Source: a virus
Strand: one strand, 5' to 3'
Virus record (IMG/VR): IMGVR_UViG_3300011113_000267
Span: 1 to 25,759 of that record
DNA length: 25,759 nt
Made by a program: the position numbers and the translations under genes. Positions 3,309 through 22,245 of the stretch are shown piece by piece. The notes under the pieces were generated by a model, which did not search any database, was not told the origin of the DNA, and worked only from the letters and a program-made list of their open reading frames with translations. The stretch's first letter is position 1. Every line of letters starts with the position of its first letter.

Positions 3309-3863
3309 TTAATAGTTTTTCTTAACTTGCCCACCATCTTTGCAATTCCAACGACGTAGAGAGGCTTTAGCTCTCGGTGCATCGCCTTTTGCGTTTTTTA
3401 CTACTCCCGACATTCTAGCACAGAATGATTTTTTACGACCTTTTTCTTTCTCAGTCTTAGGATTAGGAGCAGGCGCTTTTAAGTTACTTCCCGTAGCTCT
3501 ATTCGCTTTTGCTCTACCTTTCGCTGTGAGTCCTGCACCTTGACTGGTTGGCAGTTTTTCACCTCGCCCCACTGTTAGCGACAAACCGCCATCTTTTTTC
3601 TTCGCGGTTTTTGCTGAATTAATAAAATCTTGTTTACTTGGAGCGCCTTCTGCTCCTGGCTTACGCATACGCTCACCTGAGCCAGCTTTAATTCGCTCAC
3701 GTTTTGCGTGAATATTAGCGTAGAGTCCACCACCATCTTTCATAGCTGCTCGCTTAGTCGCGTAAGCAATTGCTACCGCTTGTTTTTGCGGTTTCCCAGC
3801 TTTTATTTCCGTAGAAATATTTTTGCTAAATGCCTTATCAGATTTTGATTTGATTAGTGGCAT
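3309..3863 (-). CDS. Basic small phage protein with DUF6496-like N-terminus and DUF6321-like C-terminus
   Basis: This 184-residue, very basic protein appears to join two small phage domains. Residues 1-42 (AFSKNISTEIKAGKPQKQAV, then AIAYATKRA) match the DUF6496 pattern as I remember it. Residues about 108-175 (GLTAKGRAKANRATGSNLKA, then RRKSFCARMSG in family form, and ASLRRWNC at the end) match the DUF6321 pattern. Between and after them are KDGG motifs (MKDGGGLY, KKDGGL and CKDGGQVKK at the end). The domain functions are unknown; both are common in the structural regions of aquatic phages. High Lys/Arg content suggests nucleic-acid contact inside the virion, which is inference. It is one of four KGG-type proteins in the window. 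Confidence 0.7.
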   Translation of the reverse strand: MPLIKSKSDKAFSKNISTEIKAGKPQKQAVAIAYATKRAAMKDGGGLYANIHAKRERIKAGSGERMRKPGAEGAPSKQDFINSAKTAKKKDGGLSLTVGRGEKLPTSQGAGLTAKGRAKANRATGSNLKAPAPNPKTEKEKGRKKSFCARMSGVVKNAKGDAPRAKASLRRWNCKDGGQVKKNY

Positions 3864-4195: not shown

Positions 4196-4927
4196 TTAAT
4201 ACTTGCACATTTTTCCGCCAGATTTGAAGCCACTCATACCACCACTCTTCATAGCAGTATGACCGCCATCTTTGTAGCCAGCTGGTTGCTGTTTGATCTG
4301 ACCAGTTTTCTTTGGAGCCTGTTTTGGATGGTCACCACTGCTCATATTTGAAATGAACTTTGCTGCACCGCCATTTTTATATCCAGCAGGAGGACCATTC
4401 TTAACTTTACCGCTTTTCGTGTTGAAAGACTTGGTCTGTTTTGCAGTAGACATATTGTTCAAAAATTTAGCTGCACCACCATTTTTGTAGCCACCAGCGT
4501 TGCTATTACGAACACCGCCTGTGGTTTTCTTAGGATTGACGCGAGTTGCTTCCAATCCACCAGCTAGACCGCCCATCGTATCTGGACCAGCTTTGGGTGC
4601 ACCACCATTTTTGAGACCACGATGAGCTTTAGAAGCAGGTTTGCCCTCATGTTGCTTGAGCTCCTTCTCTACTTTACCCATCTTTTTCATTTCAGCTTTA
4701 TGCATAGCTGGGGTTTCCATTTCGCCACCTTTTTTACGCATCATTGGGCGAGCCATTGGAGCAACTGCTGGGCGAGCCATACGACGACGTGGAGCAGGCA
4801 TTTCTGCTGCGGGAGCTACTGGTAAAGAACCACCCATTTGCATCTTAACCTTACCGCCTTTTTTGAGTTTTAGCTCAACAGATGGCTCGGTTGTTTTCAT
4901 TTTAGGCATTGGTTTGTATTGTCCCAT
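4196..4927 (-). CDS. Lysine/glycine-rich KGG-repeat protein
   Basis: The 243-residue protein is low in complexity and strongly basic. KGG or NGG motifs recur along its length: LKKGGKVK at 21-28, RKKGGE at 64-69, LKNGGA at 105-110, two near-identical blocks GYKNGGAAKF (146-155 and 182-191) each followed by a xxNMS sequence, and GYKDGG, MKSGG and FKSGG near the C-terminus. There is no catalytic motif, signal peptide or membrane segment. It is encoded just after the 324-aa structural gene and before two small virion-type genes, and is followed by a terminator hairpin. Basic Gly-rich repeats suit DNA binding or packing within the capsid; this is inference. It shares its core motif with three other late proteins here. 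Confidence 0.75.
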   Translation of the reverse strand: MGQYKPMPKMKTTEPSVELKLKKGGKVKMQMGGSLPVAPAAEMPAPRRRMARPAVAPMARPMMRKKGGEMETPAMHKAEMKKMGKVEKELKQHEGKPASKAHRGLKNGGAPKAGPDTMGGLAGGLEATRVNPKKTTGGVRNSNAGGYKNGGAAKFLNNMSTAKQTKSFNTKSGKVKNGPPAGYKNGGAAKFISNMSSGDHPKQAPKKTGQIKQQPAGYKDGGHTAMKSGGMSGFKSGGKMCKY

Positions 4928-9036: not shown

Positions 9037-9459
9037 TTAGATGAATGCTTTAATTTCACGAGGATCGCCTGTGACTTTGCCGATTAACTCATGGTCGTTA
9101 AAGAAAGTAAATAGAGCCTTTCCTTTAGCGCCTTTGTCATCTTCAAATTCAACTTCCCAGCGGTCACCACCCCATTTGGGTACTCGGACATACTCACCTA
9201 CAGCTGCCCAAGCTCCTTCTGGCCAAGGTTGCATATTTTCTCGCATCCTAAACGCTAAAGGTCCAATGGCGATAACTTTACCGATCATCGTGTTCCATTT
9301 TTCTGTTTCTTTTACTTCTTCTGGTATATACAGCCCTGCTGATGTTACTTTCTCTTTAACAGCTCTCAATTGAACGAGAACTCTAGCACCATAAGGTGCC
9401 ATCAAAGGATCTATTACTGGAAACGCTTCTGCAAGCGTCTGTTCGATATCATTCGACAT
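9037..9459 (-). CDS. GroES-like co-chaperonin (Cpn10)
   Basis: The 140-residue protein contains the GroES fold sequence: PYGARVLVQLRAVKEKV at 22-38, a mobile-loop-like stretch SAGLYIPEEVKETEKW at 40-55, then the strand MIGKVIAIGPLAFRM, and VGEYVRVPKWGGDRWEVEFE. The hydrophobic LYI at 43-45 corresponds to the tripeptide by which GroES binds GroEL. The insert FRMRENMQPWPEGAW is longer than the bacterial loop at that place. The ATG at 9459 has GAGGAG 10-15 bases upstream and is preferred to the TTG at 9477, which would add six residues. The gene overlaps the 62-aa gene by 11 bases. By analogy with T4 gp31, it would replace host GroES so that host GroEL can fold the phage coat protein. Its place beside scaffold and coat genes agrees. 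Confidence 0.85.
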   Translation of the reverse strand: MSNDIEQTLAEAFPVIDPLMAPYGARVLVQLRAVKEKVTSAGLYIPEEVKETEKWNTMIGKVIAIGPLAFRMRENMQPWPEGAWAAVGEYVRVPKWGGDRWEVEFEDDKGAKGKALFTFFNDHELIGKVTGDPREIKAFI

Positions 9460-9637
9460 CTTTTCGTTGCTCCTCAAGTAAATTGTTTAATACTTCTAAG
9501 GCTTTATTCAAGCCTATACTTTGACCGACCAACCGCTGATAACTTTCGAAATTGACACAGTTACCATTGAGCATGGCTTTCGCAATTTCTTGTTTTTCAA
9601 CTTCGATTCGGTTAATAAGTTCGCTAATAAAATTCAT
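9449..9637 (-). CDS. Small helical protein, conserved in phages, function unknown
   Basis: The 62-residue protein is entirely helical by composition: NFISELINRIEVEKQEIAKA, then a turn with NCVNFESYQRLVGQ, then IGLNKALEVLNNLLEEQRK. The central [FY]xxYQRLVGQ..GL..AL pattern is common to small proteins found beside phage portal and GroES-like genes. The ATG overlaps the upstream stop as TAATG, and its end overlaps the co-chaperonin start, so translation is coupled on both sides. No function is known. It is too short for a catalytic domain; it may be a small assembly factor. Confidence 0.6.
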   Translation of the reverse strand: MNFISELINRIEVEKQEIAKAMLNGNCVNFESYQRLVGQSIGLNKALEVLNNLLEEQRKDVE

Positions 9638-9915
9638 TAACGACCCCTTGCTGAACCCTTCTTAGGTATCGCGATTGCGATCATAATTCCAGGTTTCTTT
9701 GCCATACCACCCTTTTTCAAGGTTGCTACTTTAGCTTTACCAGCGTTGAAATCAACTCCAGCATTGCGTTTGTCGCCTCTGGCGGGCAGATTAGCGACTT
9801 TGGACTCAGCGATACCGCCTTTTGCAAACTTCTTGACGCTACCGCCTTTCTTCATTACATTGCCTTCGGTCATGCCCATAGCCATCTTTTTATGAGCGTT
9901 GATTGCTTCAGTCAT
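9637..9915 (-). CDS. Small basic KGG-motif protein
   Basis: This 92-residue protein is basic and probably disordered. It carries KKGGSVKKFAKGG at residues 22-34 and LKKGGMAKK at 66-74, and ends with IPKKGSARGR. A short hydrophobic run, GIMIAIAIP (76-84), is too short to be a membrane helix. The first motif matches, position for position, a segment in the C-terminal region of the giant protein (K-[KR]-G-G-x-V-K-K-x-x-K-G-G). It begins one base after the portal stop codon region and ends overlapping the next start. Position next to the portal suggests an internal head or portal-associated protein; function is unknown. Confidence 0.65.
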   Translation of the reverse strand: MTEAINAHKKMAMGMTEGNVMKKGGSVKKFAKGGIAESKVANLPARGDKRNAGVDFNAGKAKVATLKKGGMAKKPGIMIAIAIPKKGSARGR

Positions 9916-9916
9916 G

Positions 9917-12430
9917 TTAGACTCCTAAGTTAGATTGAATCTTGTTTTGCGCTTCTATAGCAGTTCTTATTTGCTCTTGCTGTAAAGCAGCAGCATCGCG
10001 CGTAAGTTCTGCTGCTTTAATCCTTTCTTCTGTCAAGTTATCTTCAGTGTTCATAAGGACTTTAGCCTGAAGTTCTGCATTTTTCTCCTGACTGATAGCC
10101 ATCATATCTTGACGCTTGATCTCAATATCGGCTTGATCTTTAACGGTCTTACGTTGGGTTTCAGCCATCTGAGTTTGAACAAGAGCCTGAATAGAAGGAT
10201 CAAGAGGTTGTTGAGCCTTCATCTTCTGTAAGGTTTCAAGCGCTTGTTGAATCAATGGAGCCATACCAGACAGCTGTTCGGCAGTATCTTGATGGACGTG
10301 TTGACCTGCAGCAGCGAGGAGCTGTTGGGCTTCCCGAATGATCGGCTCAATCTTATTGATATTGAATGGACGATCCAGAGCAGCCGAGGTATAGCCGTCC
10401 ATCTGGTTTAAGTACCAAAGGGTCAAGTGTTGTTTCAAATGCTCCAAAACGGCTGGTAAGAAGGTTGGAGCCATGATTGGGTTACCACCGTACAGTGGGT
10501 CTTTCAGGTAATCCAGATGGACTTGGAAGTGAGCGAGGTGATCCTGCATCGGGAAAGCACCTACTGGCTTACCGAGAGTCATCGCTACGTTCTCAAGTGC
10601 AGGGTTCATTTCCTTGACATTTTGTGGGTCAGGTAGAACTTCGTTAACATCTGGTAGTTTAATCTGTTTAAGGATTCGCTTTTCAACCGCAAGTCGGTTA
10701 TAAAGGTCTGGATTAGCCTGAGCTCTTGCTGCAAGGGTTTGGATTTGCGCATATCGTTGACTTTCAGCAAAAATATGGGGGTCGGAGACAGGAATTACGT
10801 CTGAATTTGATTTGAAATCAGCAGAAGTAATCTCTAAATCTTCAACAATCTCATTTTTACGCTGTTCGTCTACGTACCAGCGGTTCAAACGCGTCAAAAC
10901 CTTGAAAACTCTACGTTGCGAGTCATGAAGTCGTGCGTGGATTGACGAAAATACGGCTGCACCTTGCTCGATCAACGCTTGAGTCGTTCCTACAGGCGCG
11001 TTCGACGTGACGTCAGCGATTTTTTCTTCGCTAGTAGTGACAACCCCCTTTGCTGCATCGTTTAACCAGCCGAGAAGCTGGAAAAGAACAGGAGAAGGAG
11101 GGTTAAACGGCACTGGCATAGCGATTTTACGTACGTCATCTACTCCTGGAGCGCCTTCGATCTCCGAGACTTGCGTTGGCTCAATAGTGGTGGACTGACC
11201 TGAGATCTTTGCACCCTTGAGTTTGAGCATGGTTGGCGCTGTGTTAATGTGCGCACTATCCAATAGAGCACGCAATGCGCCAGTAAGAGCAGCAGAAAGA
11301 CCACCAATGAGGTGAGGCAGACCAATAGCGTAAGCACCGCGCCATGGAATGAACTTAAATTCAATGATCCAATCCAACTTAGTACAGGTGTCATCTCCAT
11401 CCTCCCAGTTTCTATATAGACCGACGACTGAACTCTCGTTCTCGTCGATCATTAGGATATAAGGAGCTCTGTCGCCTTTTGATTGGGTGTCGTCTTCCAG
11501 CTCTAACCAAGTGAAGATATGGAAAACTCGACGTATTCCGTCTATGTTATCGCTCTTTGAACTACGACCTTCAATCTTGTCGTTAGCCTTTTGAGGCTTC
11601 GTTTCTTCGGGAGTTTGGGAAGCGATATAAGAGTCAACATCCTTGTAGAGATTAGACTTTACACGGATATCAAACTCTTCTTGGGTAATGTCTTGAACTT
11701 CGGTAACTCGCGAAGCGGTGTAGAAATTACCTGATGCAAAGGGTAAATAGACGTTATCAATCGGTACGAACTCAGCGCATGGGCGCTTTTTCTGCTCATC
11801 ATACCAGAGTTTCAAAAATTGTGAGCCACCTAGAGGAAGCTGGGTGAGCATTTGTTCTTGCTCATCGCGATATTCCTCAATCTGCTCAGTCAATTGCCAG
11901 TTCATATAGTCGCGTTTACGTTCAGCGACTTCTACTTTTTGTTCGGTTACTTCCCCGATGATCTTAGTTCTTACGGGTCCATCGGGTGGAAATAGTTCTT
12001 TGATGGCGCGAGCTGCAAAATCAACGCAAGCCTCTGCCATGACTGGGTGAACTACTTTAGAAGCACCCATAAACTGAGCGCCTCCAGGAGCGTCATGACC
12101 TAGACCAGTACGACGCAAGCCTTCTTCGTATTGCTTGTCCCGCTCTTCGCGAGCTTGTTTGTCTTTCTCGATCAGGTCGAGATACTTGAGAGCGATCTTG
12201 TCTAGCTCCCAATCGTCAATCTTTTCAGCTAAGTTTTCGTAGAAATCAGGGTTTTCTTCTGGACCCTTCATATCGTCTAGTTTGACGATCGCGCTACCAT
12301 CGGGTAATTCTTCAACGCCAGAGTCTTCATCAAACATCTCAAATACAGACTCGTTATCTTCTAAGTTCTGATCATTCTCGACAGGTTCTACAAAGCGATT
12401 GTAGTCTTGAGGAATAGGCATTTCTGGCAT
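9917..12430 (-). CDS. Portal protein
   Basis: The 837-residue protein has the features of large podovirus-type portals. After an acidic N-terminus (about 1-75) comes SKVVHPVMAEACVDFAARAI followed by KELFPPDGPV, then MNWQLTEQIEEYRDEQEQML and LPLGGSQFLKLWYDE. PFASGNFYTASRVTEVQDI and the acidic YILMIDENES region follow. The core crown and wing are suggested by WRGAYAIGLPHLIGGLSAAL, TGALRALLDSAHINTAPTML and EKIADVTSNAPVGTTQALIE. Residues about 690-837 are long Gln/Glu/Ala-rich helices that could form the C-terminal barrel extending into the capsid, as in P22. It would form the dodecameric ring through which DNA enters and leaves. It is three bases from the giant-protein gene. Identification is strong by pattern and neighbours. 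Confidence 0.88.
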   Translation of the reverse strand: MPEMPIPQDYNRFVEPVENDQNLEDNESVFEMFDEDSGVEELPDGSAIVKLDDMKGPEENPDFYENLAEKIDDWELDKIALKYLDLIEKDKQAREERDKQYEEGLRRTGLGHDAPGGAQFMGASKVVHPVMAEACVDFAARAIKELFPPDGPVRTKIIGEVTEQKVEVAERKRDYMNWQLTEQIEEYRDEQEQMLTQLPLGGSQFLKLWYDEQKKRPCAEFVPIDNVYLPFASGNFYTASRVTEVQDITQEEFDIRVKSNLYKDVDSYIASQTPEETKPQKANDKIEGRSSKSDNIDGIRRVFHIFTWLELEDDTQSKGDRAPYILMIDENESSVVGLYRNWEDGDDTCTKLDWIIEFKFIPWRGAYAIGLPHLIGGLSAALTGALRALLDSAHINTAPTMLKLKGAKISGQSTTIEPTQVSEIEGAPGVDDVRKIAMPVPFNPPSPVLFQLLGWLNDAAKGVVTTSEEKIADVTSNAPVGTTQALIEQGAAVFSSIHARLHDSQRRVFKVLTRLNRWYVDEQRKNEIVEDLEITSADFKSNSDVIPVSDPHIFAESQRYAQIQTLAARAQANPDLYNRLAVEKRILKQIKLPDVNEVLPDPQNVKEMNPALENVAMTLGKPVGAFPMQDHLAHFQVHLDYLKDPLYGGNPIMAPTFLPAVLEHLKQHLTLWYLNQMDGYTSAALDRPFNINKIEPIIREAQQLLAAAGQHVHQDTAEQLSGMAPLIQQALETLQKMKAQQPLDPSIQALVQTQMAETQRKTVKDQADIEIKRQDMMAISQEKNAELQAKVLMNTEDNLTEERIKAAELTRDAAALQQEQIRTAIEAQNKIQSNLGV

Positions 12431-12432
12431 TA

Positions 12433-15400
12433 TTATTTCCTTAACAGTTCGTAACGCATTTGATCAATGCTCACTTTACCACCAGCATTATAAGTCGGAT
12501 TTCTTGAGCCGAGTCGATTTTTCAATTCAACGTCAGTCAAACCGCCACCACCAGAAGGTCTTGAGGATGACTTTTGGCGTTGTTCAATTTGATATTTCAA
12601 CTCTTCAGCGAATCCTGGATCTGTCAAATTGACAACAGGTTTGACAGGAGGAGTGCGGGGATGCTCGCTAGGGATATTCATCGCAGAGGGAACAGGATTT
12701 ACTTTGCCACCTTTGTTCATCTTTTTAACACGACCGCCTCGTTTAAGATCATCTTGATGTCTGAAGTTTAAGTACTCGTCTGACTTCGGAGCGATGATAT
12801 CTGCTTCTGAGCGCTCAGGATATCGTTTAGGTGATACACCAAGTTGGTCAGACCTTACACCATGGCGCAACTGAAAGTCTAGAGCAGCTTGTCCGTCGTC
12901 ATAAAAGTTTCTATTGAATTTATCGCGTTTTAAATCAGAGTATGAACGAACTCCTGTGGCTTGTTCAATGAATCCACCGCGCTTACGACCTTCTGGGGGT
13001 TCTCTATCAGCGTTGTCAAGTAAATTTTCAAGTTGACGGAAAACTTCAAAATGCCTGTCAATCAAATCTGCAAATCGATTCATCTCAGCAGTTGATGAAA
13101 GATTAAAATATTCAGGTTCATGATCACCGCTCAAAAGCATGTCGTGAATAATACCTAGATGATGCATTGCATTTTGAAGATTCAAGGTATTGACTGCAGG
13201 ATCAATTTCCCTTAATATTTCACGATATTCGTTTTGAACTTCTTCAGAGTAATCGCGCTCAAATTGAGTGATTGGGCGGTTTAATCCGTCGGTAACGATA
13301 TCGATTGGAGCACGAGGCGCTTCACCGTATCTACGCTCTAGTTCATCAATCGGGTTAACGGCTGGAGCGGGAAGCTGAGGCGCTGCATTTCCTGGAGTGT
13401 CAGGTAGCTGTTGATAACTATAGAGCAAACTTGAAGCTAGCTCGTTCATCGCAGTTGCGTACGTAGCATCACCTTCTAAACCTGTTGCGCTAGCTACTGC
13501 TGCTAACTGATTCAAACGCGAAATAAACTCGTCAGGACTTGTATCAAACCTAATACCTTCTGTCATAAGTCTGTCAAGATCTCGTTGCATTACATCAACA
13601 ATATTTTCAGGATAATTATAACTAGAGGTTTCGAGCGCGTCATCAAGAATATCACTTAACGCTTCTTGATTAGTAGCAGCTGGGCGAGGAGGATGGTCAA
13701 ATCCGTTACCTTCCATATATTGACGGAGAGCGTTATTGATTTGAGAGATACCAGCAGGGGCTTGAACATTATAGAACCGCATCACTTCCTCATCATACAT
13801 CGCGCGACCATCAGTCCTACGGATGGCTTCATTGATTGCTCCAGGAGTTATGCGTTCAGCTTGCATGATTTGATCAAATGCTCTTCTTGAACCCATCTCT
13901 TCATTCGTATATTGGTCACGATAACTAGTGATTGTTTGATCAAACTGAGGTGCTGCTTGACCACCAGCAGGTCTATAGTCAGGATCATTGAGTAATCGAC
14001 CTAACAATAAATTGGTAAAATCAACTGCGTGCCCTCTCTGCTCTTCAGTCAGGTCTCTGAACTCACTTTGACGAGCAAAAATACGATCCAAAAGTGAACC
14101 AGCTTGACGAAGCTGACCGAGCTCCATCAGCTCATTCATCTCACGAGTGATTACTCCTCTGATGTGTTCAGGAATCAGAGGTTGTTCTTCAGGCGCTTCA
14201 ATGAGAGCGGGTGCTTGATTACCGAGCCTGTTTTGAATCTGTTGAATCAAATAATTAGAAATAGTTCGCCGATACTCATTCTGAGTTCCTCGAACTGATG
14301 AAGTCGGCAATATCATTTCTATTGAGCCAGGAATATCTAACGGATTACGCTGATATTGCGCTAACGCTTCTTGCAAGGTTTCTCTATCTTCAGGCAGATT
14401 TCTGATCGAGTTGTTGATCGCTTCTGCAACTTCTTGAACAGTTTGGTCTCTGAATGCCTGATTCATAGGAACTACTTGATTAGCGATATCTCTAGGTGCA
14501 GGCATTGCGGTTTGAGCAGGTGCTGTTTCAGGCACGAAGTCTTCGCCTCTTCTGCGTCTGGAAATCTGTCTGAGATAATCTGGAACGTCAGGATGCGCCT
14601 CTTCATATTGACGCTGACCATCTGCTGGATCATCGGGATTCAAATTGTCAATCTGTTGAAGAATGTTCGCCTCAGCATAACGATCAAGTTCGCGGACTAA
14701 CACTTCTCTTTGCATCGGATTGAAGTTTTCAATAGCAATTTGAAATCTTGCTAGACGCTCGCGTATATTGATATCATCGTCAACAGTTGTTAAAGATGTA
14801 ATTAAATTTTCGTTGTTGCGAATAGCATTAGTAAATGTTCTTAGTCTCTCAGGGTAAAACTCAATGTCATCTGCCCAGAAATCTACTAATCCGTCATTGT
14901 TAAGAAGATGAACTGTACGGCTGACTAAATCTAGAACTTCATCAAGTCTGCCTTCTAGTTGCAATCCGTTGGTCAATGCTTCGCTAGACATACGCCTAAA
15001 CACATTGGGGCGATCAGATGGTTGTGTGACCACTTGGCGAGAAATATCTTGAAGCCGTGCTGTCAAGTCTTGAATGTCGTCAGCGATGTCTACCGCTTCA
15101 GGATCATCTTCACCTCGGTCACGGATGATACGATTGTATTCATCGTTGAGTTGATTGCGTCTACGTAAAAGGTCTGCGTGTGTGTCGCCGACAGGCTGTT
15201 CAAGAGCCAGTCTACGAACGTCACTCTCTAAAACGAATCTTGGAAGACCCAGACTAGGAATTGATGATGAATTGATGTTCATCAACGAGGCTATCTTGCG
15301 CTGACCATCGTTATTTGTCGTGTCTAAGATACCCCACTTGTTCAACGCATCGCCTGAACCTTTTATGATATCGGCACGAAGATTCAAATAATCTTTGACG

Positions 15401-17979
15401 TCTTCTGCGTAGTTAGCAACGCTTTCGGGTTCAGCTTTGTTTTGATATCCTGAGACATAACTGAGGTTGTACTTACCTGAGCCTTCTTTCAACATATTGA
15501 TAGTCACGACAGGTAAACCTGTTGCATTGTCGCGCACGTGAGCGGTACGTTGACCACCTTGTAAAACATTTTTCATGAAGCTTGAAGCTAGTTTTCTGTC
15601 ACCGCGATCTTTTCCAGTTGCAGGATCAACAGGGTAAGAATAGTTATAACGCTCACCGCTGAACGGATTGATTCCTGGATGCGGTGCGTCACAACCTGCA
15701 ATGCAGTGGTCAAGCACCATTCCGTCAAAGCTGATCTGGCGACGGATAGCATCTTCGTTAGACTTTTCAGTAAGCTCAAGTACGGAAGAGTTCTTGAAGC
15801 GAAGCTCAGGAGGAATTTTAGACAGAGTCTCTTGAGCGTAATCGTTTATCTTCGCCATTCCTTTGCGCGATTCAGCTTCTTTGATCGTTTCTTCTTTGAT
15901 ACGAGGCTTGGTCAGTTGTTCGATGATCTTGTCAATCGAGGTCATCGGTTTGCCTTTTTCGTTCAGAGGAATACGACCCGACATGATATTCTTAACGATC
16001 ATCTCAGCGAGGAACGGAATGCCGAGTTCACCGAGTTCACGCGACTTGACGTTGAACATCTGTGCGGTGTCAGGAGTCTTCTCAAGATTCGGGAAGAACT
16101 GTTTCTCAGCAAACGGAATAGTTCTCTTGAATTCTTTGGCGAGTGTTGGTGAGTATGCCACGTCGCTGATGGTTTCGTATGCGTTGGCTAACCTGAAGTT
16201 CTCGAGCTGCTTTTTGCTCTGTTCGATCTTGTCGATCAGGGTGTTCATCGGGTTTGTCAGTGCGCGATACTTAGCGCCTGTCTCGGTTGGATTACGAGCG
16301 GGATCTGGTTCGTCAGGCATTTCAACACGATGAAGGTCGCGGAGTTCGCTCTTTTGACGATTGAGATCGTTCAATTGAGTCTGAAGGTCTTTGACTTCGG
16401 TCTCTTTTTGAACGATGAGCGGATACATCTCGCCACGAGGATTGAAACCTGCCTTAGCGCGTTCTTTACCTAGATCGTCAAGTTCACCGCTGAATGCACC
16501 TCGAGATGATTCAAACTTCTTCATCATGTCAAGAAGTTCTTCCTTGGGCGCCATCGTGATACCGCGCTTAGCGAGCTCCATCTGTGGACCTTGTGAGGTG
16601 CCAATGTACTTAGCGATATCCTTTTTGAATGTTCCCTCGAGATAATCCTTTGCTGCCTGAGCACGACGCATGTACTCTTCTTTGGTAGGCGGGGTAATAC
16701 GCTTGATGAATTCATCGCGGGAGAGCTCGGGCATCAGATCTTTCTGTAGAAGTTGAAGCTCGAGTTGTTCAACATTCTCCTCGTGGGCGCGACGCTCTTC
16801 GTCAGTCTTCAGATCTTTACGAGGTTTGTTCTTCTGCGCGTTGTATTCGTTGATCAATTGATCGCGTTCGTTTGCGACGGACTCAATTGCGGACAGCGCT
16901 TCGGGCGAACGAGCGAAGTCAGACAGCATATTGATTTGTTGTAGAGCGAACTCTTTCTGATTGAATCGATTAGTGTAGGCTTCTACCGCAGCACTGCCAT
17001 CTGGCGCGTCGGGGAACATCTCATTGATCTTCTTCTGAGAGAAGGTTCTCCATGCATTTTCCAGCGGTTTGGGCGCGTCTCTGACTGCTGCGTTGTAGTA
17101 CTCGGACGAGGTGTTGTGTGGGTAGTCGGACTCAGTATACGGAACGATATCCTGTATGATGTTCTGAACAGTCCTGACTTTTCTTGGGGTGTCGCCATAC
17201 TTTGCGGTCGGCAGATCGGTTGGGTCGATCATCTGCCCGACGTTGGCTGGGCGAACAGCATACATACGAGTCTGCGGGCTAACGACGTCAGGGATTCCAG
17301 GAATGGGCGACAGACCTTGCATCTCGCGACGTGCCATGACGTCACCGATCTCATCGAAGAGACCTTGCGTACGAGCACCGAGAGTGGGTCCACCGAAGAC
17401 GCTCTCACGACGGAGACCTTCTTGCGCAGCACGGAAGTCTTCAGGAATGTTACGGATCTCACGACCTGATTCGATTGCACGACCACCCATGACTCTTACG
17501 TCATCGGGTGAAAGGAATGGGCGACGCTCAAGACCAAAGGCGCGACGTGGTACGTAGAACTCAGCGAGTGGACCGACTCCCATCTCGGATCCTGTCACGA
17601 CTTGCGGAAGGCGGGAGACTCCCTCGAGAACTTCTTGCCCCATCTTCGACGTGGGTGTGTATTGAATCGCTTCAGCAACTTTGGGGAAGCCTGTCTCTTT
17701 TGCGACGGCTGCTGGGAAAGAACTGATCATGCCAAGTGCAGCTTGCGGTATCGCGCTCAGTCCGAGCCGATCAGCAATCGCTTGCGGCACGTTGGTTGCC
17801 GTGCTGGCTGGCTTTGGTGGAGGCTTGGCGATGTACGTCTGAGGAACTTCGGACGCGACGTAAGGAACGTCAGATCCTCCTGGACGAAGAGGCATGATGC
17901 CTTTCTTGGCGAGCTCGTACTTCATCTCATCAAGAGCTAGATCGTCAGGAATGTATTCACCGAACTCGTTATATGGCAT
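12433..17979 (-). CDS. Giant multidomain protein with PcfJ-like segment and C-terminal KGG motifs; possible polyvalent or ejected virion protein
   Basis: At 1848 residues this is by far the largest protein here and it lies between TerL and portal, where no such gene is usual. Residues 17-26 (DEMKYELAKK) match the last ten residues (DQMRYELLRK). Residues about 55-110 contain Ala/Gly-rich amphipathic segments. Residues about 345-620 are coiled-coil-like and highly charged. Residues about 745-870 resemble the PcfJ family pattern: DHCIAGCDAPHPG (His758, Cys759), a glycine then RTAHVRDNATGLPVVTINM, YNLSYVSGYQNKAEPESVAN. The rest is helical with many short domains. Near the C-terminus are RKRGGF, KRGGRVKKMNKGGK and YNAGGKVS. 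No polymerase, protease or lysozyme motif is evident. Large composite proteins of this sort can travel with phage DNA into the host (polyvalent proteins). Its start overlaps the TerL end by 11 bases. Identity as one gene is secure; function is not. Confidence 0.75.
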   Translation of the reverse strand: MPYNEFGEYIPDDLALDEMKYELAKKGIMPLRPGGSDVPYVASEVPQTYIAKPPPKPASTATNVPQAIADRLGLSAIPQAALGMISSFPAAVAKETGFPKVAEAIQYTPTSKMGQEVLEGVSRLPQVVTGSEMGVGPLAEFYVPRRAFGLERRPFLSPDDVRVMGGRAIESGREIRNIPEDFRAAQEGLRRESVFGGPTLGARTQGLFDEIGDVMARREMQGLSPIPGIPDVVSPQTRMYAVRPANVGQMIDPTDLPTAKYGDTPRKVRTVQNIIQDIVPYTESDYPHNTSSEYYNAAVRDAPKPLENAWRTFSQKKINEMFPDAPDGSAAVEAYTNRFNQKEFALQQINMLSDFARSPEALSAIESVANERDQLINEYNAQKNKPRKDLKTDEERRAHEENVEQLELQLLQKDLMPELSRDEFIKRITPPTKEEYMRRAQAAKDYLEGTFKKDIAKYIGTSQGPQMELAKRGITMAPKEELLDMMKKFESSRGAFSGELDDLGKERAKAGFNPRGEMYPLIVQKETEVKDLQTQLNDLNRQKSELRDLHRVEMPDEPDPARNPTETGAKYRALTNPMNTLIDKIEQSKKQLENFRLANAYETISDVAYSPTLAKEFKRTIPFAEKQFFPNLEKTPDTAQMFNVKSRELGELGIPFLAEMIVKNIMSGRIPLNEKGKPMTSIDKIIEQLTKPRIKEETIKEAESRKGMAKINDYAQETLSKIPPELRFKNSSVLELTEKSNEDAIRRQISFDGMVLDHCIAGCDAPHPGINPFSGERYNYSYPVDPATGKDRGDRKLASSFMKNVLQGGQRTAHVRDNATGLPVVTINMLKEGSGKYNLSYVSGYQNKAEPESVANYAEDVKDYLNLRADIIKGSGDALNKWGILDTTNNDGQRKIASLMNINSSSIPSLGLPRFVLESDVRRLALEQPVGDTHADLLRRRNQLNDEYNRIIRDRGEDDPEAVDIADDIQDLTARLQDISRQVVTQPSDRPNVFRRMSSEALTNGLQLEGRLDEVLDLVSRTVHLLNNDGLVDFWADDIEFYPERLRTFTNAIRNNENLITSLTTVDDDINIRERLARFQIAIENFNPMQREVLVRELDRYAEANILQQIDNLNPDDPADGQRQYEEAHPDVPDYLRQISRRRRGEDFVPETAPAQTAMPAPRDIANQVVPMNQAFRDQTVQEVAEAINNSIRNLPEDRETLQEALAQYQRNPLDIPGSIEMILPTSSVRGTQNEYRRTISNYLIQQIQNRLGNQAPALIEAPEEQPLIPEHIRGVITREMNELMELGQLRQAGSLLDRIFARQSEFRDLTEEQRGHAVDFTNLLLGRLLNDPDYRPAGGQAAPQFDQTITSYRDQYTNEEMGSRRAFDQIMQAERITPGAINEAIRRTDGRAMYDEEVMRFYNVQAPAGISQINNALRQYMEGNGFDHPPRPAATNQEALSDILDDALETSSYNYPENIVDVMQRDLDRLMTEGIRFDTSPDEFISRLNQLAAVASATGLEGDATYATAMNELASSLLYSYQQLPDTPGNAAPQLPAPAVNPIDELERRYGEAPRAPIDIVTDGLNRPITQFERDYSEEVQNEYREILREIDPAVNTLNLQNAMHHLGIIHDMLLSGDHEPEYFNLSSTAEMNRFADLIDRHFEVFRQLENLLDNADREPPEGRKRGGFIEQATGVRSYSDLKRDKFNRNFYDDGQAALDFQLRHGVRSDQLGVSPKRYPERSEADIIAPKSDEYLNFRHQDDLKRGGRVKKMNKGGKVNPVPSAMNIPSEHPRTPPVKPVVNLTDPGFAEELKYQIEQRQKSSSRPSGGGGLTDVELKNRLGSRNPTYNAGGKVSIDQMRYELLRK

Positions 17980-19408
17980 ACGGATTCACTCTGGGTGGTT
18001 TAGTGTCGTCGACATAATCATCTGAGTTGTCAACGATATAGTCGATGACCAAGAAGCCAAGATCCCTCAGGATGCGTAGAGCCTGAGTAGTCGAGTCCAC
18101 AAGGTCGTCGTGACGAACTTCGGGGAAGGCGCAAATTTGATTGATCAATGGATCTACCCAATCTCGTGCGTGTCCTGCGTTGACTGTTGATTCAGGTAAG
18201 TATACGCGACCTCTCTGGATAATGGGGGAAATAATATTGAGTCGCATCATTTTATCTGCTTGACCAGGATTGTACGAGCGCACAGGTAAGCCAGCGCGTT
18301 GTAAGTCCTGAATGAGGGATATCCCTGCCGACTTGTCCTCGATCAGGATCATGTCGACCTTCTTTCCCACACCGAACTCGTTCTCGTCTCCGTAGATGGC
18401 GCTGTACTCCTCGATGACTCGTGGGCGCAGATCAGGGTACTGAAGGTATTCGGTCCAGCAGTCAATGAGCATGACCGACATGGCTTTGTCCTCGTTCGGC
18501 TTGAAGACTCCCCAGACCGTACAAGCGGTCGGGTCGTTCTTCGTCTTGTCCGAGGTCGCGCAGTCATACGACTGAACGATATACTCGAAACGAGGCAGAG
18601 CGCGGTCGGCTGGCCAAAGTTTGAACCAATCGCGCTTGACAACGCCAGACTCTTCTGGGTCGATGATCTCAGCGTAGATCTCCTGCCGACCGATGTTCGT
18701 GCCCTCGTATTGCATGATCTGATCACGAAACGTGGGCGCGAGGTTATTGATGTTGTCAAACGTAGACGCGGTCGTGTAGATGACGTCTTCACCATCGCGG
18801 TCGACGAGGTCAATGATCAATGGTTTGGGCTTCGGTGTCGTGGTACAGATGATCTGTGGGCGCGACCCGAGACGCATGCCGAACTGTAGCATGTCCCACG
18901 CGTCGTCTAGGTAATCCCAAGCAGCGAGCTCGTCACACCAACCTCCGTGGAATTGTGGTCCGCGGAAGCGGGAGGGTTCAGACGCAGCAATGCCTTTGAT
19001 CAGAGAGCCATTGACTAACTTGAGCTCGTGCTGGGATTTGTTATAGCCGTTGTTCTCGACAATGATCTCGCGCGGTATAACGCTGAGTAGTCCCGAGTCC
19101 CCCTCGAAGCAGACGTCCCTGACGTCGCCAGAGGTGGGCGCGGAGACGAGCCAGCGCGTTCCTGGATTGCTCCACGCTTGCCACCAGAGCCATTCTGAAG
19201 CACAGCGCGTCTTGCCTGCACCGCGCCCAGCGAGGAGTAGCCACACAGTCCACCACTCTCCCGCAGGTTCTATCTGATGCTTGCCCGCGGAAGCGAGCCA
19301 CTTGAGGCGAGCCTTCATTGCTGCGCGATGAGACTCAGGGAGAACGCTGAGATCTGGACCAGATTGGATCTTGGTCGCGATCTTTTGCGCGAACTCTTCA
19401 GAGATCAT
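17969..19408 (-). CDS. terL: Terminase large subunit (TerL)
   Basis: The 479-residue protein has both enzyme halves of a large terminase. The ATPase half has Walker A GRGAGKT (61-67), Walker B WCDELAAW (157-164, Asp159 and Glu160) and the coupling motif TTTP (189-192). The nuclease half has a RNase H-type acidic set: Asp282 in QSYDCATSDKTKNDPT, Glu357/Asp358 in MILIEDKSAG, and Asp434/Asp435 in RHDDLVDSTTQAL. It pumps DNA through the portal into the prohead and cuts concatemers. The ATG at 19408 overlaps the TerS stop as ATGA, so translation is coupled. The length is normal for the family. This is the most secure gene in the window. Confidence 0.95.
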   Translation of the reverse strand: MISEEFAQKIATKIQSGPDLSVLPESHRAAMKARLKWLASAGKHQIEPAGEWWTVWLLLAGRGAGKTRCASEWLWWQAWSNPGTRWLVSAPTSGDVRDVCFEGDSGLLSVIPREIIVENNGYNKSQHELKLVNGSLIKGIAASEPSRFRGPQFHGGWCDELAAWDYLDDAWDMLQFGMRLGSRPQIICTTTPKPKPLIIDLVDRDGEDVIYTTASTFDNINNLAPTFRDQIMQYEGTNIGRQEIYAEIIDPEESGVVKRDWFKLWPADRALPRFEYIVQSYDCATSDKTKNDPTACTVWGVFKPNEDKAMSVMLIDCWTEYLQYPDLRPRVIEEYSAIYGDENEFGVGKKVDMILIEDKSAGISLIQDLQRAGLPVRSYNPGQADKMMRLNIISPIIQRGRVYLPESTVNAGHARDWVDPLINQICAFPEVRHDDLVDSTTQALRILRDLGFLVIDYIVDNSDDYVDDTKPPRVNPYAI

Positions 19409-19845
19409 TTAGATTCTTTTTGTCTTGTGGCTAAGATGTCTTTGAGTAATTCTTCGGTGAAGTTTGTTGCGCCACTGACTTCGATAGGCGCGCCATCAAC
19501 ACCCGAGATCTCCTGCGTCATGACGGCTTTGCCATCTAGACGATCGAAGACTTCTTTTGCTGCCCACGCTTCGCCAGCTTCCGCTTCGTCGAGCAATGTG
19601 TCAACGATCTTCTCTAGCTTGCGTGGGTTCTGAATGATCTTGCGTGTGAGCATGTCGCGGAATGGTTTGTTCTTGGTCGCGTTCTTGTTGCCCATCATCT
19701 TTTCAGAGATGGAGCGCAGGGTTTCCTCGGAGAACTTGGACTTTTTCTGCTCTTCAATCTTCTCTGCCACCTGCTCGGGAGTGAGATTCTCTGCACTCGA
19801 GGCGACGGAAGGAAGAGGTGCAGGGTCAAATTCGTGCTTTTCCAT
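19405..19845 (-). CDS. Terminase small subunit-like protein (TerS)
   Basis: The 146-residue protein has a Pro/Ala/Glu-rich N-terminus (1-35) followed by ISEKMMGNKNATKNKPFRDM, LTRKIIQNPRKLEKIVDTLL, DEAEAGEAWAAKEVFDRLDG and KAVMTQEISGVDGAPIEV. The GNKNA.K.KPFRD...L, A..GxxWAxKEVxDRLDGK sequence is a pattern common to small terminase-like proteins encoded directly before TerL. A TerS recognises the packaging site and guides TerL. The ATG at 19845 has AGGAA 9 bases upstream. The gene ends in an ATGA overlap with terL. The identification rests mostly on this pattern and position; the DNA-binding helix-turn-helix is not obvious. The 12-mer array upstream could be its target. Confidence 0.75.
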   Translation of the reverse strand: MEKHEFDPAPLPSVASSAENLTPEQVAEKIEEQKKSKFSEETLRSISEKMMGNKNATKNKPFRDMLTRKIIQNPRKLEKIVDTLLDEAEAGEAWAAKEVFDRLDGKAVMTQEISGVDGAPIEVSGATNFTEELLKDILATRQKESK

Positions 19846-19891: not shown

Positions 19892-19921
19892 ATTATGCGG
19901 TAATTTCTCACGATTCGCAAC
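19892..19921 (-). promoter_or_regulatory. Candidate late promoter for terS and the structural operon
   Basis: On the minus strand the sequence reads GTTGCG, 18 bases, then CATAAT (or TTGCGA, 17, CATAAT). The spacing and -10 box match the three rightward promoters in this window. The predicted start is near 19885, giving a leader of about 40 bases before terS. The promoter class is read from the sequence; activity is inferred. Confidence 0.5.
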
Positions 19922-19944: not shown

Positions 19945-20217
19945 CAGCGACTTCTCCAGCGACTTCCCTTAGGAAAACAGTAGAAGTTGCTGCTGCTGAA
20001 AAAACCACCAAAACTCGGTAAACACCAATGCCTGCATGGCGCTAGAGGCGCCAATGCTGGACGGCAGGATGTTTTTGGACTGTTCGCCAGCAACTTCCCC
20101 AGCAACTTCTCACACTCTACAGAAGTCGCTGCTTTGCAACTCATTGATTTCATAAGCCTGCCAGCAACTTCTCCAACGACTTCGCAACGACTTCTAACAA
20201 AAGTCCAGCAACTTCTC
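19945..20217. repeat. Array of ten 12-bp motifs (consensus CARCRACTTCYC), candidate packaging site or replication origin
   Basis: Eight direct copies start at 19945, 19957, 20088, 20100, 20162, 20174, 20185 and 20206. Two inverted copies are at 19983-19992 and 20122-20131. The first six direct copies are arranged as head-to-tail pairs with a 12-bp period, and pairs one and two are each followed after 10-14 bases by an inverted copy. The block lies in the 378-bp gap between the primase-helicase and terS. Repeats that small terminases bind in cos or pac sites upstream of terS, and iterons bound by Rep proteins, both have this look. No long ORF in the gap is convincing. Confidence 0.75.
20034..20057. 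other. Stem-loop in the repeat array
   Basis: TGGCGC (20037-20042) and GCGCCA (20048-20053) form a perfect stem around TAGAG. The stem extends to GCA and TGC with one bulged A. The outer CCTGC (20031-20035) and GCAGG (20064-20068) can pair too. There is no T tract on the minus strand, so it is unlikely to be an ordinary terminator for the primase-helicase gene. It sits between the first and second groups of 12-mers. Confidence 0.5.
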
Positions 20218-20223
20218 ACAAAA

Positions 20224-22245
20224 CTATCCCACATACACACCTCGAATCACATAGATCTCTCTCGTCTGAGAATGCATCTTGAATCGTTTCCGATTCTCCT
20301 CTGTATTCTCCACCTTCTCAATCCGACCTCTGTCGATGAGAGTGTTGAGCATCTGCAGAATTTTCGGCTTGTCTGCACCCAGCTTCATCCCCTTCAATGA
20401 GTTCACAGTGGCAAAGTCCTCTAACTGCTGAGAGAAGTGTATCGCTCTGTAGATCTCCTCGAGTAAGTTCTCCTCAGAGTTCTCTTCTCTTTCCTCTGCA
20501 CGCAGTTCTGGGGAAGACTCAAAGTATTCCGTCGTGAAGTATCCAATCTGTGTCTCGTCTCCGTAGGGAGTCACACCTTCTGCCGTGTGGTGCTCGATTG
20601 TGACTCTGACCTCCTTGTGCCGTGCTCCGTCCCTATCCTTGATGTTCGCTAGGATTCTGCCTTCTACGTTAGCCACGTCCACGATTCCCATCGTCCCGTT
20701 GGAGTCTCCCGCAATCGCACCCGCACCCCTCGCTGTCAACTTCTCATAGTCGTCAGAGCTCATGCTAGACTTCGTGATGTGAGTAATGACCCACACAGGG
20801 ATTCGGTTCATCTCCCAGAAGTGTATCTTCAGCTGGCTGATCAACTTTGAGAGCTCAGCATTGTTGTTCTCATCTTCAATGTCAAACGATGCAGCTTGCG
20901 TGTCAAATACGACCAGTGGTGGAATCGACTTGTTGTCTTGTGGTGTGTTAAAGTTCTTGATATGATTCGCTAAGTCCTCGATGTCTCCTGCCTTGTAGCG
21001 CTTGGTCATGTGGACTTTGAAAAAGTTTTCCCATTCTTCATGCGGGTTACTGAACTTTCTTGACTGGTGCTTCTTCATGCCATAGATCATGCGATTGATC
21101 TGGTTGGTGTCCTCAGTAAAGTAAAACACAACTCTGCGGTGCTTGGGTGTCAGGAAGTTCGGCTGAACCAGATGCGCTACGTTGGCGCACAGAGGCGAGA
21201 TGATTGACGTCTTTCCCTTGCCTTGCGCACCTGAGATAGCCCGCACACCCTCACCAATGAAGTCATCAATCACCCAATCAGGCGCAATCATCTTGTCAAT
21301 CCACTGCTTGACTGGAATGAGGAGAGGTTCGTCTGGGTCAGATCGGTTCTTCAACTTGACGTTGGCTGTCCGTACAGAACGCTCAATGTCATCAAAGCGC
21401 TCTTGCCATCTATCCTCATCACCGCGCTCAAGATAGCCAGCCTTTGCTGAGAGCATCACACCTTGAATCATCTCAATGGTGTCCGTCTCCCGCATGCCCT
21501 TTGCGAGCTGGCTCATGGCTAGCCGATTGATGTTGTCGTGCAATGACGTGCCAGAAGTTATCTCTGTGATGGCATGACTGATATCAAACTTGTTGTGCTC
21601 AGTCAAATCAAAATCAATTTCATTCTTTGCCACACTCAAGTCGAGCAGTTCCGCTACCTTCATCAAACTGAAAGAGACTGATGGGTTCCAGCTGATCATC
21701 TTGACTTTGAACGGCACGTTCTTGTTGTTAGTAGAGTTGGGCAACCGCGCTAACCGCACTCGGTTGTTGCCTGACTTGTCCGCGTAGCCAGACTTGTAGA
21801 GAGATTGCATCACTCTGTCGGCTAGTTCAATGTTGTTGCCGTCGCTAATCTTGAACCCGACCTGATATGAAGGCTTGATTGTGCCATCGTTCTGAACCTT
21901 GCGCTCACTGGTCTGTAGGATATACGTCGGGGTTATCTGTAATTCATCGAGCTTCTCAATGGGGTAGTCATCCGCTACGAGCACCCGCATGGCTGGGGAG
22001 TCCTGCTTCTCGTTGCCCTCACCGATGAATGACCCGACGGAGTAGTAACAGTCCAGCTCAGGATTGAACTCAATGTTGTTCGCGGAGATGGTATACCGAG
22101 TCCAGTTCGGCTTCTTACTGATGTGATGACAACACCCGCGTGTTACGTCATCCCCAAAAATTACATGCAAAAACTCCGCTTGACCCAGCTCTGCCGTGGT
22201 GTTGACCACTGGCTCTGAGTCATCCCAATTTATCTTTTTACTCAT
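20224..22245 (-). CDS. Primase-helicase / RepA-like replication protein
   Basis: The 673-residue protein seems to join an N-terminal primase-like domain, a RecA-fold ATPase and a C-terminal winged-helix region. Residues about 60-185 follow the archaeo-eukaryotic primase type found in RepB-like proteins: RVLVADDYP with Asp92/Asp93, PTYILQTSERK, YQVGFKI and RVRLARLPNSTNNK. Residues about 322-560 are AAA_25/RepA-like: Walker A GAQGKGKTS at 339-347, Walker B LVVFDTQ at 444-450 with Asp448, and the sensor-like WVITHITKS with His489. Residues about 590-673 end with a likely winged helix. It would open and prime DNA at the phage origin. It is transcribed leftward with the late genes, facing the early genes across the 22246-22566 gap. 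No strong ribosome site is visible upstream. Confidence 0.8.
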   Translation of the reverse strand: MSKKINWDDSEPVVNTTAELGQAEFLHVIFGDDVTRGCCHHISKKPNWTRYTISANNIEFNPELDCYYSVGSFIGEGNEKQDSPAMRVLVADDYPIEKLDELQITPTYILQTSERKVQNDGTIKPSYQVGFKISDGNNIELADRVMQSLYKSGYADKSGNNRVRLARLPNSTNNKNVPFKVKMISWNPSVSFSLMKVAELLDLSVAKNEIDFDLTEHNKFDISHAITEITSGTSLHDNINRLAMSQLAKGMRETDTIEMIQGVMLSAKAGYLERGDEDRWQERFDDIERSVRTANVKLKNRSDPDEPLLIPVKQWIDKMIAPDWVIDDFIGEGVRAISGAQGKGKTSIISPLCANVAHLVQPNFLTPKHRRVVFYFTEDTNQINRMIYGMKKHQSRKFSNPHEEWENFFKVHMTKRYKAGDIEDLANHIKNFNTPQDNKSIPPLVVFDTQAASFDIEDENNNAELSKLISQLKIHFWEMNRIPVWVITHITKSSMSSDDYEKLTARGAGAIAGDSNGTMGIVDVANVEGRILANIKDRDGARHKEVRVTIEHHTAEGVTPYGDETQIGYFTTEYFESSPELRAEEREENSEENLLEEIYRAIHFSQQLEDFATVNSLKGMKLGADKPKILQMLNTLIDRGRIEKVENTEENRKRFKMHSQTREIYVIRGVYVG

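Follow-up and report, generated by a model that had tools for sequence, protein, structure and literature searches.

The window, by which we mean the whole stretch of 25,759 bases of viral DNA that was analysed, carries on its minus strand a gene for a 673-aa primase-helicase, followed by 378 bases, a gene for a 146-aa protein at the TerS position and terL. The array described here follows the helicase stop (20224), in the gap before the TerS-position gene. Motif scanning found ten copies of the core CARCRACTTC between 19945 and 20215 (within an array of 273 nt), eight direct and two inverted, which is the number and orientation that a sequence-only reading had given for the gap between helicase and terS; the starts it gave for the inverted copies, 19983 and 20122, are those of the 10-base core. 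On the plus strand the 12-mer CARCRACTTCYC was exact at 19945, 19957, 20088, 20100, 20162 and 20206 and had one mismatch at 20174 and 20185, and the inverted copies had one mismatch each (19981-19992 and 20120-20131). The head-to-tail pairs with a 12-bp period that had been noticed at 19945/19957 and 20088/20100 were both measured at a spacing of 12, and the remaining distances were 12 and 11 (20162/20174/20185) and 21 (to 20206). The first repeat lies 10 nt past the helicase stop. Outside the array, the sole further exact copy of the core in the window was at 11923-11932. When up to two mismatches were allowed, CARCRACTTCYC had 25 matches in the whole window, whereas shuffles had 13.0 on average (sd 3.1, largest 22). 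The best 9-mer in the 340 nt past the helicase stop had 10 copies (at most one mismatch); 60 dinucleotide shuffles averaged 2.8 and never exceeded 4. The features are listed in Table 1.

Table 1. Features of the array and its flanking genes in the window
Feature	Position	Strand	Basis
TerS-position protein, 146 aa, directly upstream of terL	19405..19845	-	position only
Promoter-like TTGCGA-17-CATAAT before terS, outside the array	19892..19920	-	consensus match only
Iteron CAGCGACTTC	19945..19954	+	motif scan
Iteron CAGCGACTTC	19957..19966	+	motif scan
CCTTAGG element, between inverted iterons	19967..19973	.	
Inverted iteron CAGCAACTTC	19983..19992	-	motif scan
Central hairpin, separating the iteron clusters	20031..20068	.	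conserved in alignment of relatives
Iteron CAGCAACTTC	20088..20097	+	motif scan
Iteron CAGCAACTTC	20100..20109	+	motif scan
Inverted iteron CAGCGACTTC	20122..20131	-	motif scan
Iteron CAGCAACTTC	20162..20171	+	motif scan
Iteron CAACGACTTC	20174..20183	+	motif scan
Iteron CAACGACTTC	20185..20194	+	motif scan
Iteron CAGCAACTTC	20206..20215	+	motif scan
Primase-helicase, proposed origin-binding initiator, 673 aa	20224..22245	-	Pfam AAA_25
Predicted C-terminal winged-helix domain, residues 575-673	20224..20523	-	AlphaFold2, co-variation with iterons

The array of the window thus consists of two iteron clusters with a hairpin between them. Folded as DNA, the hairpin was moderately better than shuffles (z -2.08 in the window, -2.58 in the relative L012). 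A candidate compensatory pair, TGCC/GGCA in the window versus TGTC/GACA in L012 and L088, was unused in the best predicted fold of L012 and was therefore not counted. An element CT(A/T)nAG resembling CCTTAGG was present in 12 of the 14 loci checked, by a pattern composed after those loci had been viewed. When AT content was scanned in stretches of 40 nt, no melting region rich in AT stood out clearly in the window, where the maximum was 0.625; in 13 relatives the maxima ranged from 0.625 to 0.85 and sometimes lay outside the array. Two ORFs cross the array, where relatives carry indels, and the minus-strand one (110 aa) had no Pfam match. Neither Pfam nor PHROG gave a match to the TerS-position protein itself. 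The string TTGCGA-17-CATAAT also precedes terS in L012 and L013, though the array of L013 differs; it seems to go with terS rather than with the iterons and may be a late promoter. Elsewhere in the window, a 1848-aa protein encoded directly after terL (12433-17979, minus strand) had no PHROG match. According to the translations, its end has short KDGG/KKGG-like repeats, which are also found in small basic proteins at 3309-3863, 4196-4927 and 9637-9915 (minus strand). The gene at 9037-9477 (minus strand), beside structural genes, encodes what we take, by likeness, to be a GroES-type co-chaperonin, and such a protein is annotated near terminase or portal genes in two related phage records.

Residues 321-494 of the primase-helicase matched AAA_25, a RecA-fold helicase domain (Pfam E 4.9e-16), and Foldseek gave matches to RecA-fold ATPases, among them Rad51, KaiC and DnaB, at a TM-score by query length of about 0.2; the window's gene has additional N- and C-terminal regions. 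The primase label comes from weak PHROG matches and from PriCT_2 in the relative L013. Relatives have exchanged the N-terminal primase part as well: the window and L097 have one type (73%), and L092 and L091 have another, 15-18% identical to the window's. In the AlphaFold2 model of the full protein, residues 1-234 had pLDDT below 50 and the blocks from residue 571 on had 61-90, with a winged helix predicted at residues 579-667 and its recognition helix at about 626-638. The last 99 residues modelled alone also gave a predicted winged helix (mean pLDDT 80.5), which VIA-align matched to the winged helices of IdeR, MarR and IscR with Z of 9-10. Initiators such as RepC and RepE were not among the 50 VIA-align matches listed, which is uninformative either way. 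Foldseek on the C-terminal domain alone gave no match under E 0.001, and the matches of helicase C-termini to Pfam DnaD_N, FeoC, EAP30 and MarR_2 were below the curated cut-offs and were set aside. A single phage-isolate record matched the helicase of the window (26% identity), and among plasmids no record matched the L091 helicase over 80% of its length.

Our search of helicase relatives (30 loci, 20 of them examined for arrays) revealed that a repeat family beat all 60 shuffles in the 340 nt past the helicase stop at 19 of the 20; at L116, where the iterons are degenerate, the array stayed within the shuffle range (5 copies versus a shuffle maximum of 6). The window's array is found in the same place in L007-L009, L088 and L012 and partly in L011, which reaches its contig end there. 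In these close relatives the copy number and spacing on the helicase side vary, and much of the remainder is conserved, including the central hairpin. Other helicase relatives carry other repeats at the same place, and these differ between groups: a GAACCGATAG-like repeat in L097 and L092, AAACCAGA in L101, AAACGGTTTGA in L091, a AACCGTCTGA-like repeat in L104, L105 and L121, GGAACGnACGG in L013 and L119 and more loosely in L106, GGAAACGACGG in L114 and L116, and CAGGCGAG or CAGGCAAG in L122 and L108. In L116 and L114 the TerS match starts as far as 687 nt and 1643 nt past the helicase stop, respectively, and the array is still near that stop; thus the array stays with the helicase and not with terS. 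A stem with inverted iterons starts 8-16 nt past the helicase stop in L013, L106, L114 and L116 and 162-232 nt past it in the nine other loci that have one, as if, judging from the layout, the module had been inverted in the former four. The stem faces the helicase in these four, a change that an mRNA leader or a terminator would be unlikely to tolerate. Many contigs in the study are fragments. In five larger ones (G001-G005, 43-58 kb, loci L123-L137), 4-8 matches to the own repeat were in the array out of totals of 7-12, and elsewhere the own repeat reached at most 1 per 340 nt. The cumulative GC-skew minimum was located 2.4-5.2 kb upstream of the array (in the direction of the helicase gene) in G001, G002, G003 and G005, a regularity noticed only afterwards, and far from it in G004. 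GC skew was rejected as an origin mark because this minimum is perhaps merely the turning point of gene direction.

Several pairs of relatives amount to natural swaps. L101, L104 and L108 have TerS proteins 96-98% identical, C-termini only 16-19% identical and three unlike repeats (similarity 0.01-0.07), and the window's repeat is also found beside TerS proteins only 46-47% identical to the window's (L012, L088). In L091 and L092 the AAA domains are 92% identical, the C-termini 20% and the repeat similarity is 0.13; the divergence starts at about -280 nt relative to the stop and continues through the array. L092 and L097 have a repeat similarity of 0.71 with identities of 13% in the primase, 67% in AAA, 50% in TerS and 41% in the C-terminus. 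There are also misfits: L092 and L101, whose C-termini are the closest pair of the group (48%), have a repeat similarity of 0.04; L150 and L224 have a C-terminal score of 0.52 and a repeat similarity of 0.00; and L013 and L119 have the repeat in common (0.89) with C-termini only 33% identical. The misfits are included in the partial tests given below.

For a quantitative comparison, repeat similarity was set against the identity of the primase, the AAA domain, the C-terminal ~85 residues and TerS at 16 of the 30 loci, from which near-duplicates had been dropped by hand (Mantel tests; primase identity was not computable for L101 and L106). C-terminal identity was correlated with the repeat both on ranks (rho 0.32, p 0.0008) and on a linear scale (r 0.84, p 0.0002). 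The corresponding values were 0.085 (p 0.17) and 0.49 (p 0.0002) for AAA, and 0.01 (0.011; p 0.46) and 0.16 (p 0.052) for TerS, so that on ranks only the C-terminus, among the three, predicts the repeat. The C-terminal code adjoins the array and linkage alone could yield such a correlation; therefore we masked the iterons and measured the remaining intergenic similarity, which itself correlated with the repeat (linear 0.67). With the masked intergenic DNA held constant (partial Mantel), the C-terminus retained a rank correlation of 0.30 (p 0.0012) and a linear one of 0.68 (p 0.0002), AAA a linear one of 0.30 (p 0.003) and TerS none. A stricter near-duplicate cut left 13 loci, with 0.39 (rank, p 0.0014) and 0.66 (linear) for the C-terminus, 0.04 (rank, p 0.36) and 0.10 (linear) for TerS and 0.37 (linear, p 0.0026) for AAA. 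In 27 further distant loci, which were collected once the idea existed, were picked for at least 6 repeat copies and contain the near-duplicates L190/L192, L201/L203 and L146/L148, the C-terminus given AAA had a rho of 0.21 (p 0.003) and AAA given the C-terminus 0.08 (p 0.15). By these comparisons of sequence, the repeat follows the predicted winged helix at the helicase C-terminus better than it follows TerS.

The sharpest case is the pair L116/L119, in which, as far as the alignments tell, iterons and predicted winged helix have changed together at an unchanged helicase body and hairpin. Primase and AAA are 100% identical (rounded) and TerS 99%, with the C-terminus at 75% and the repeat at 0.32. 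Nucleotide identity is mostly 91-100% upstream of the C-terminal code and 88-100% from about 620 nt past the stop; between these two points L116 is longer than L119 by about 300 nt. The central hairpin is identical and the iterons differ together, being mostly GGAAACGACGG- or GGAAGTGACGG-like in the one versus GGAACGGACGG-like in the other. Changes were enriched in the iteron footprints, which we defined ourselves with up to 3 mismatches (33 of 98 columns versus 12 of 92 outside, p 0.001).

The survey of more distant AAA_25 helicases comprised 58 loci (46 of 78 and 12 of 13), 57 of them evaluable, after contigs already included, near-duplicates by match values and the truncated locus L149 had been omitted. 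At least 6 repeat copies were present within 340 nt past the gene at 27 of the 57, and fewer at 30. The former include loci from the genomes of Halopseudomonas yangmingensis (L144), Pseudomonas indoloxydans (L146) and P. mendocina (L148), which are possible cultivable test objects. These three Pseudomonas-group genomes have GGAACGRC-type arrays, and direct reading of the DNA of L146 and L148 showed the array to be followed by a gene starting MSKFQKGQSGNPSG. Relatives found through TerL, with DUF5906 helicases, have the repeats TGTAACC/TGTAATC/TGTTACC, words picked by eye, at the same place; the two helicases tested, of L016 and L030, were DUF5906/DUF3854. L016 (3800-4056), L022 (3875-4104), L030 (5340-5558) and L051 (4658-4910) are TerL relatives with another TerS type, and their repeats lie between helicase and terS and surround AT-rich DNA, as described for PICI origins. 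Among 18 DUF5906 relatives the repeat correlated with the C-terminus, with the core and, to a weak degree, with TerS (rho 0.17, p 0.041); the C-terminus was inseparable from the core (p 0.096 given core and TerS), and TerS given the C-terminus had no effect (p 0.37). A scan of IMG/VR with a loose pattern for the window's paired iteron gave at least 120 stretches, and 80 loci were examined. Nine of these had at least 4 copies in 400 nt: two belong to the known mixed-orientation group (L009, and L260, the same contig as L011), and in seven the copies all run one way and look like codon repeats. Scanning with a second pattern gave no hits.

Taken together, we think it probable, at roughly 85%, that the array is a phage replication origin (ori) whose iterons serve as binding sites for the winged helix at the C-terminus of the adjacent primase-helicase, a reading drawn from co-variation and structure prediction. 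The sequence-only reading had offered two alternatives, and they fared differently: iterons for a RepA-like protein gain from the co-variation with the C-terminus, and TerS sites of a cos/pac region lose from the dissociations of TerS and repeat. It is known that cosB and pac sites are often near terS and contain repeats; the array adjoins the TerS-position gene in the window and its close relatives, and the weak correlation with TerS among the DUF5906 relatives points the same way. However, that correlation vanished when the C-terminus was held constant, TerS failed to predict the repeat at the 16 loci, and in L114 and L116 TerS is far from the array. Nearly identical TerS proteins are found beside unlike repeats and distant ones beside the window's repeat. 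Loss of the motif beside the same terS had been named in the sequence-only reading as a refutation of its protein-bound site, and where TerS is taken as the protein, L101, L104 and L108 are such cases. We therefore consider a TerS binding site for packaging very unlikely and disfavour the TerS-position protein as the reader of the array.

The array could also be an operator for the helicase or for terS and the late genes, with the helicase winged helix or another regulator as repressor or activator. Its intergenic location and the promoter-like site between array and terS would suit this, and initiators often autoregulate too. However, the array is situated 3' of the helicase gene and does not include the promoter-like site, and the module seems reversed in four relatives; a distant regulator gene would also be unlikely to co-vary with the helicase C-terminus at a constant body, as in L116/L119. 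An operator is thus improbable in our view. That the array is a selfish or structural repeat (a REP-like element or a recombination site), co-varying by physical linkage only, draws on its position next to the C-terminal coding end, with which it was partly exchanged in L091/L092, and on the correlation of masked intergenic similarity with the repeat. The C-terminal association persisted after control for that similarity, the hairpin DNA between the iterons of L116/L119 is unchanged, and the repeat is not clustered elsewhere in the five larger contigs, all of which makes this explanation extremely doubtful.

If the array is an origin read by the helicase, the 10-12 bp iterons would be docking sites for the winged helices of the primase-helicase, and several helicase-primase subunits might bind both iteron clusters. 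The DNA could then be melted or extruded at the hairpin or palindrome, and we would guess that strand opening or the start of priming takes place at this hairpin and at the CTTAAG-like element that inverted iterons enclose. RecA-fold helicase rings would load, and the fused primase domain would start new strands. The end of the initiator adjoins the iterons, and both could therefore be exchanged or evolve as one specificity cassette. At even odds, in our judgement, such phages have a lock-and-key origin cassette, made of the winged-helix end of a RecA-fold primase-helicase and the adjacent iterons, which diversifies while the backbone stays nearly constant, both through exchange of the whole cassette and through concerted iteron change (L116/L119), with some twenty specificities, counted by eye, coexisting among related phages. 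This diversity plausibly keeps origins from use or attack by co-infecting phages, satellites and origin-directed nucleases.

Comparable modules are known. In SaPI/PICI the iteron origin is described as lying immediately 3' of rep, with two iteron sets and a C-terminal reader (PMC7581432, PMC6092414). The window has in common with these descriptions the array immediately 3' of the helicase gene and the two iteron sets. The reader there is the Rep C-terminal domain, whereas here the C-terminus is proposed from co-variation; the iteron sets there flank an AT-rich region, whereas those of the window flank a hairpin, with no clear AT-rich stretch. SaPI Rep relatives are described as being of the DUF927 or Primase_Cterm/D5 types, whereas the window's helicase is AAA_25 with RecA/DnaB-like matches. 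SaPI/PICI are also helper-dependent satellites, whereas the window encodes its own TerL and portal. In the PLE satellites of Vibrio cholerae, the binding domain co-varies with ori, and the nuclease Odn was proposed as the selective pressure (PMC8263062). PLE RepA is described there with an N-terminal binding domain (RepA_N), its iterons as three semi-palindromic ones of ~30 bp and the carrier as a satellite of phage ICP1; in the window the proposed reader is C-terminal, the repeats are 10-12 bp long and the element is a phage.

Iterons are also known from phage P4, and RepA of the plasmid RSF1010 is a RecA-fold hexameric helicase, defined by the AAA_25/RecA-fold domain. In RSF1010 (IncQ), RepA, RepB', RepC and oriV form the module and the iterons are read by RepC (PMC4234260). 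Iterons with initiator, helicase and primase functions are common to that description and to the window, where the AAA_25/RecA-fold helicase domain is also found; three separate polypeptides are described there, with RepC as initiator and RepB' as primase, whereas one chain would do all three jobs here. The same source describes pRN1 ORF904 as a fused primase-helicase whose C-terminus carries a winged helix and whose origin lies downstream of its gene; unlike the window, pRN1 has an SF3 helicase and a 100-nt stem-loop and no iterons. Phage P4 alpha is described there as a fused primase-helicase, as here, but with a Toprim primase (PMC4234260). From the SaPI/PICI and PLE modules, that of the window differs in its RecA-fold helicase, its phage context and its range of specificities. 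Our literature search, with most subscription journals outside its reach, turned up no description of iterons behind a phage primase-helicase of the AAA_25 type.

The finding assigns a probable replication origin and its initiator to a family of uncultured phages. It indicates that phages with a helicase of another fold may have a layout that was described as confined to PICI satellites. In the relatives, nature has provided a series of initiator domains matched to repeats, with one pair whose helicases differ almost only in that domain, and the evolution of initiator-origin specificity is therefore directly testable in them. Such a series could also supply mutually independent origins for plasmid design.
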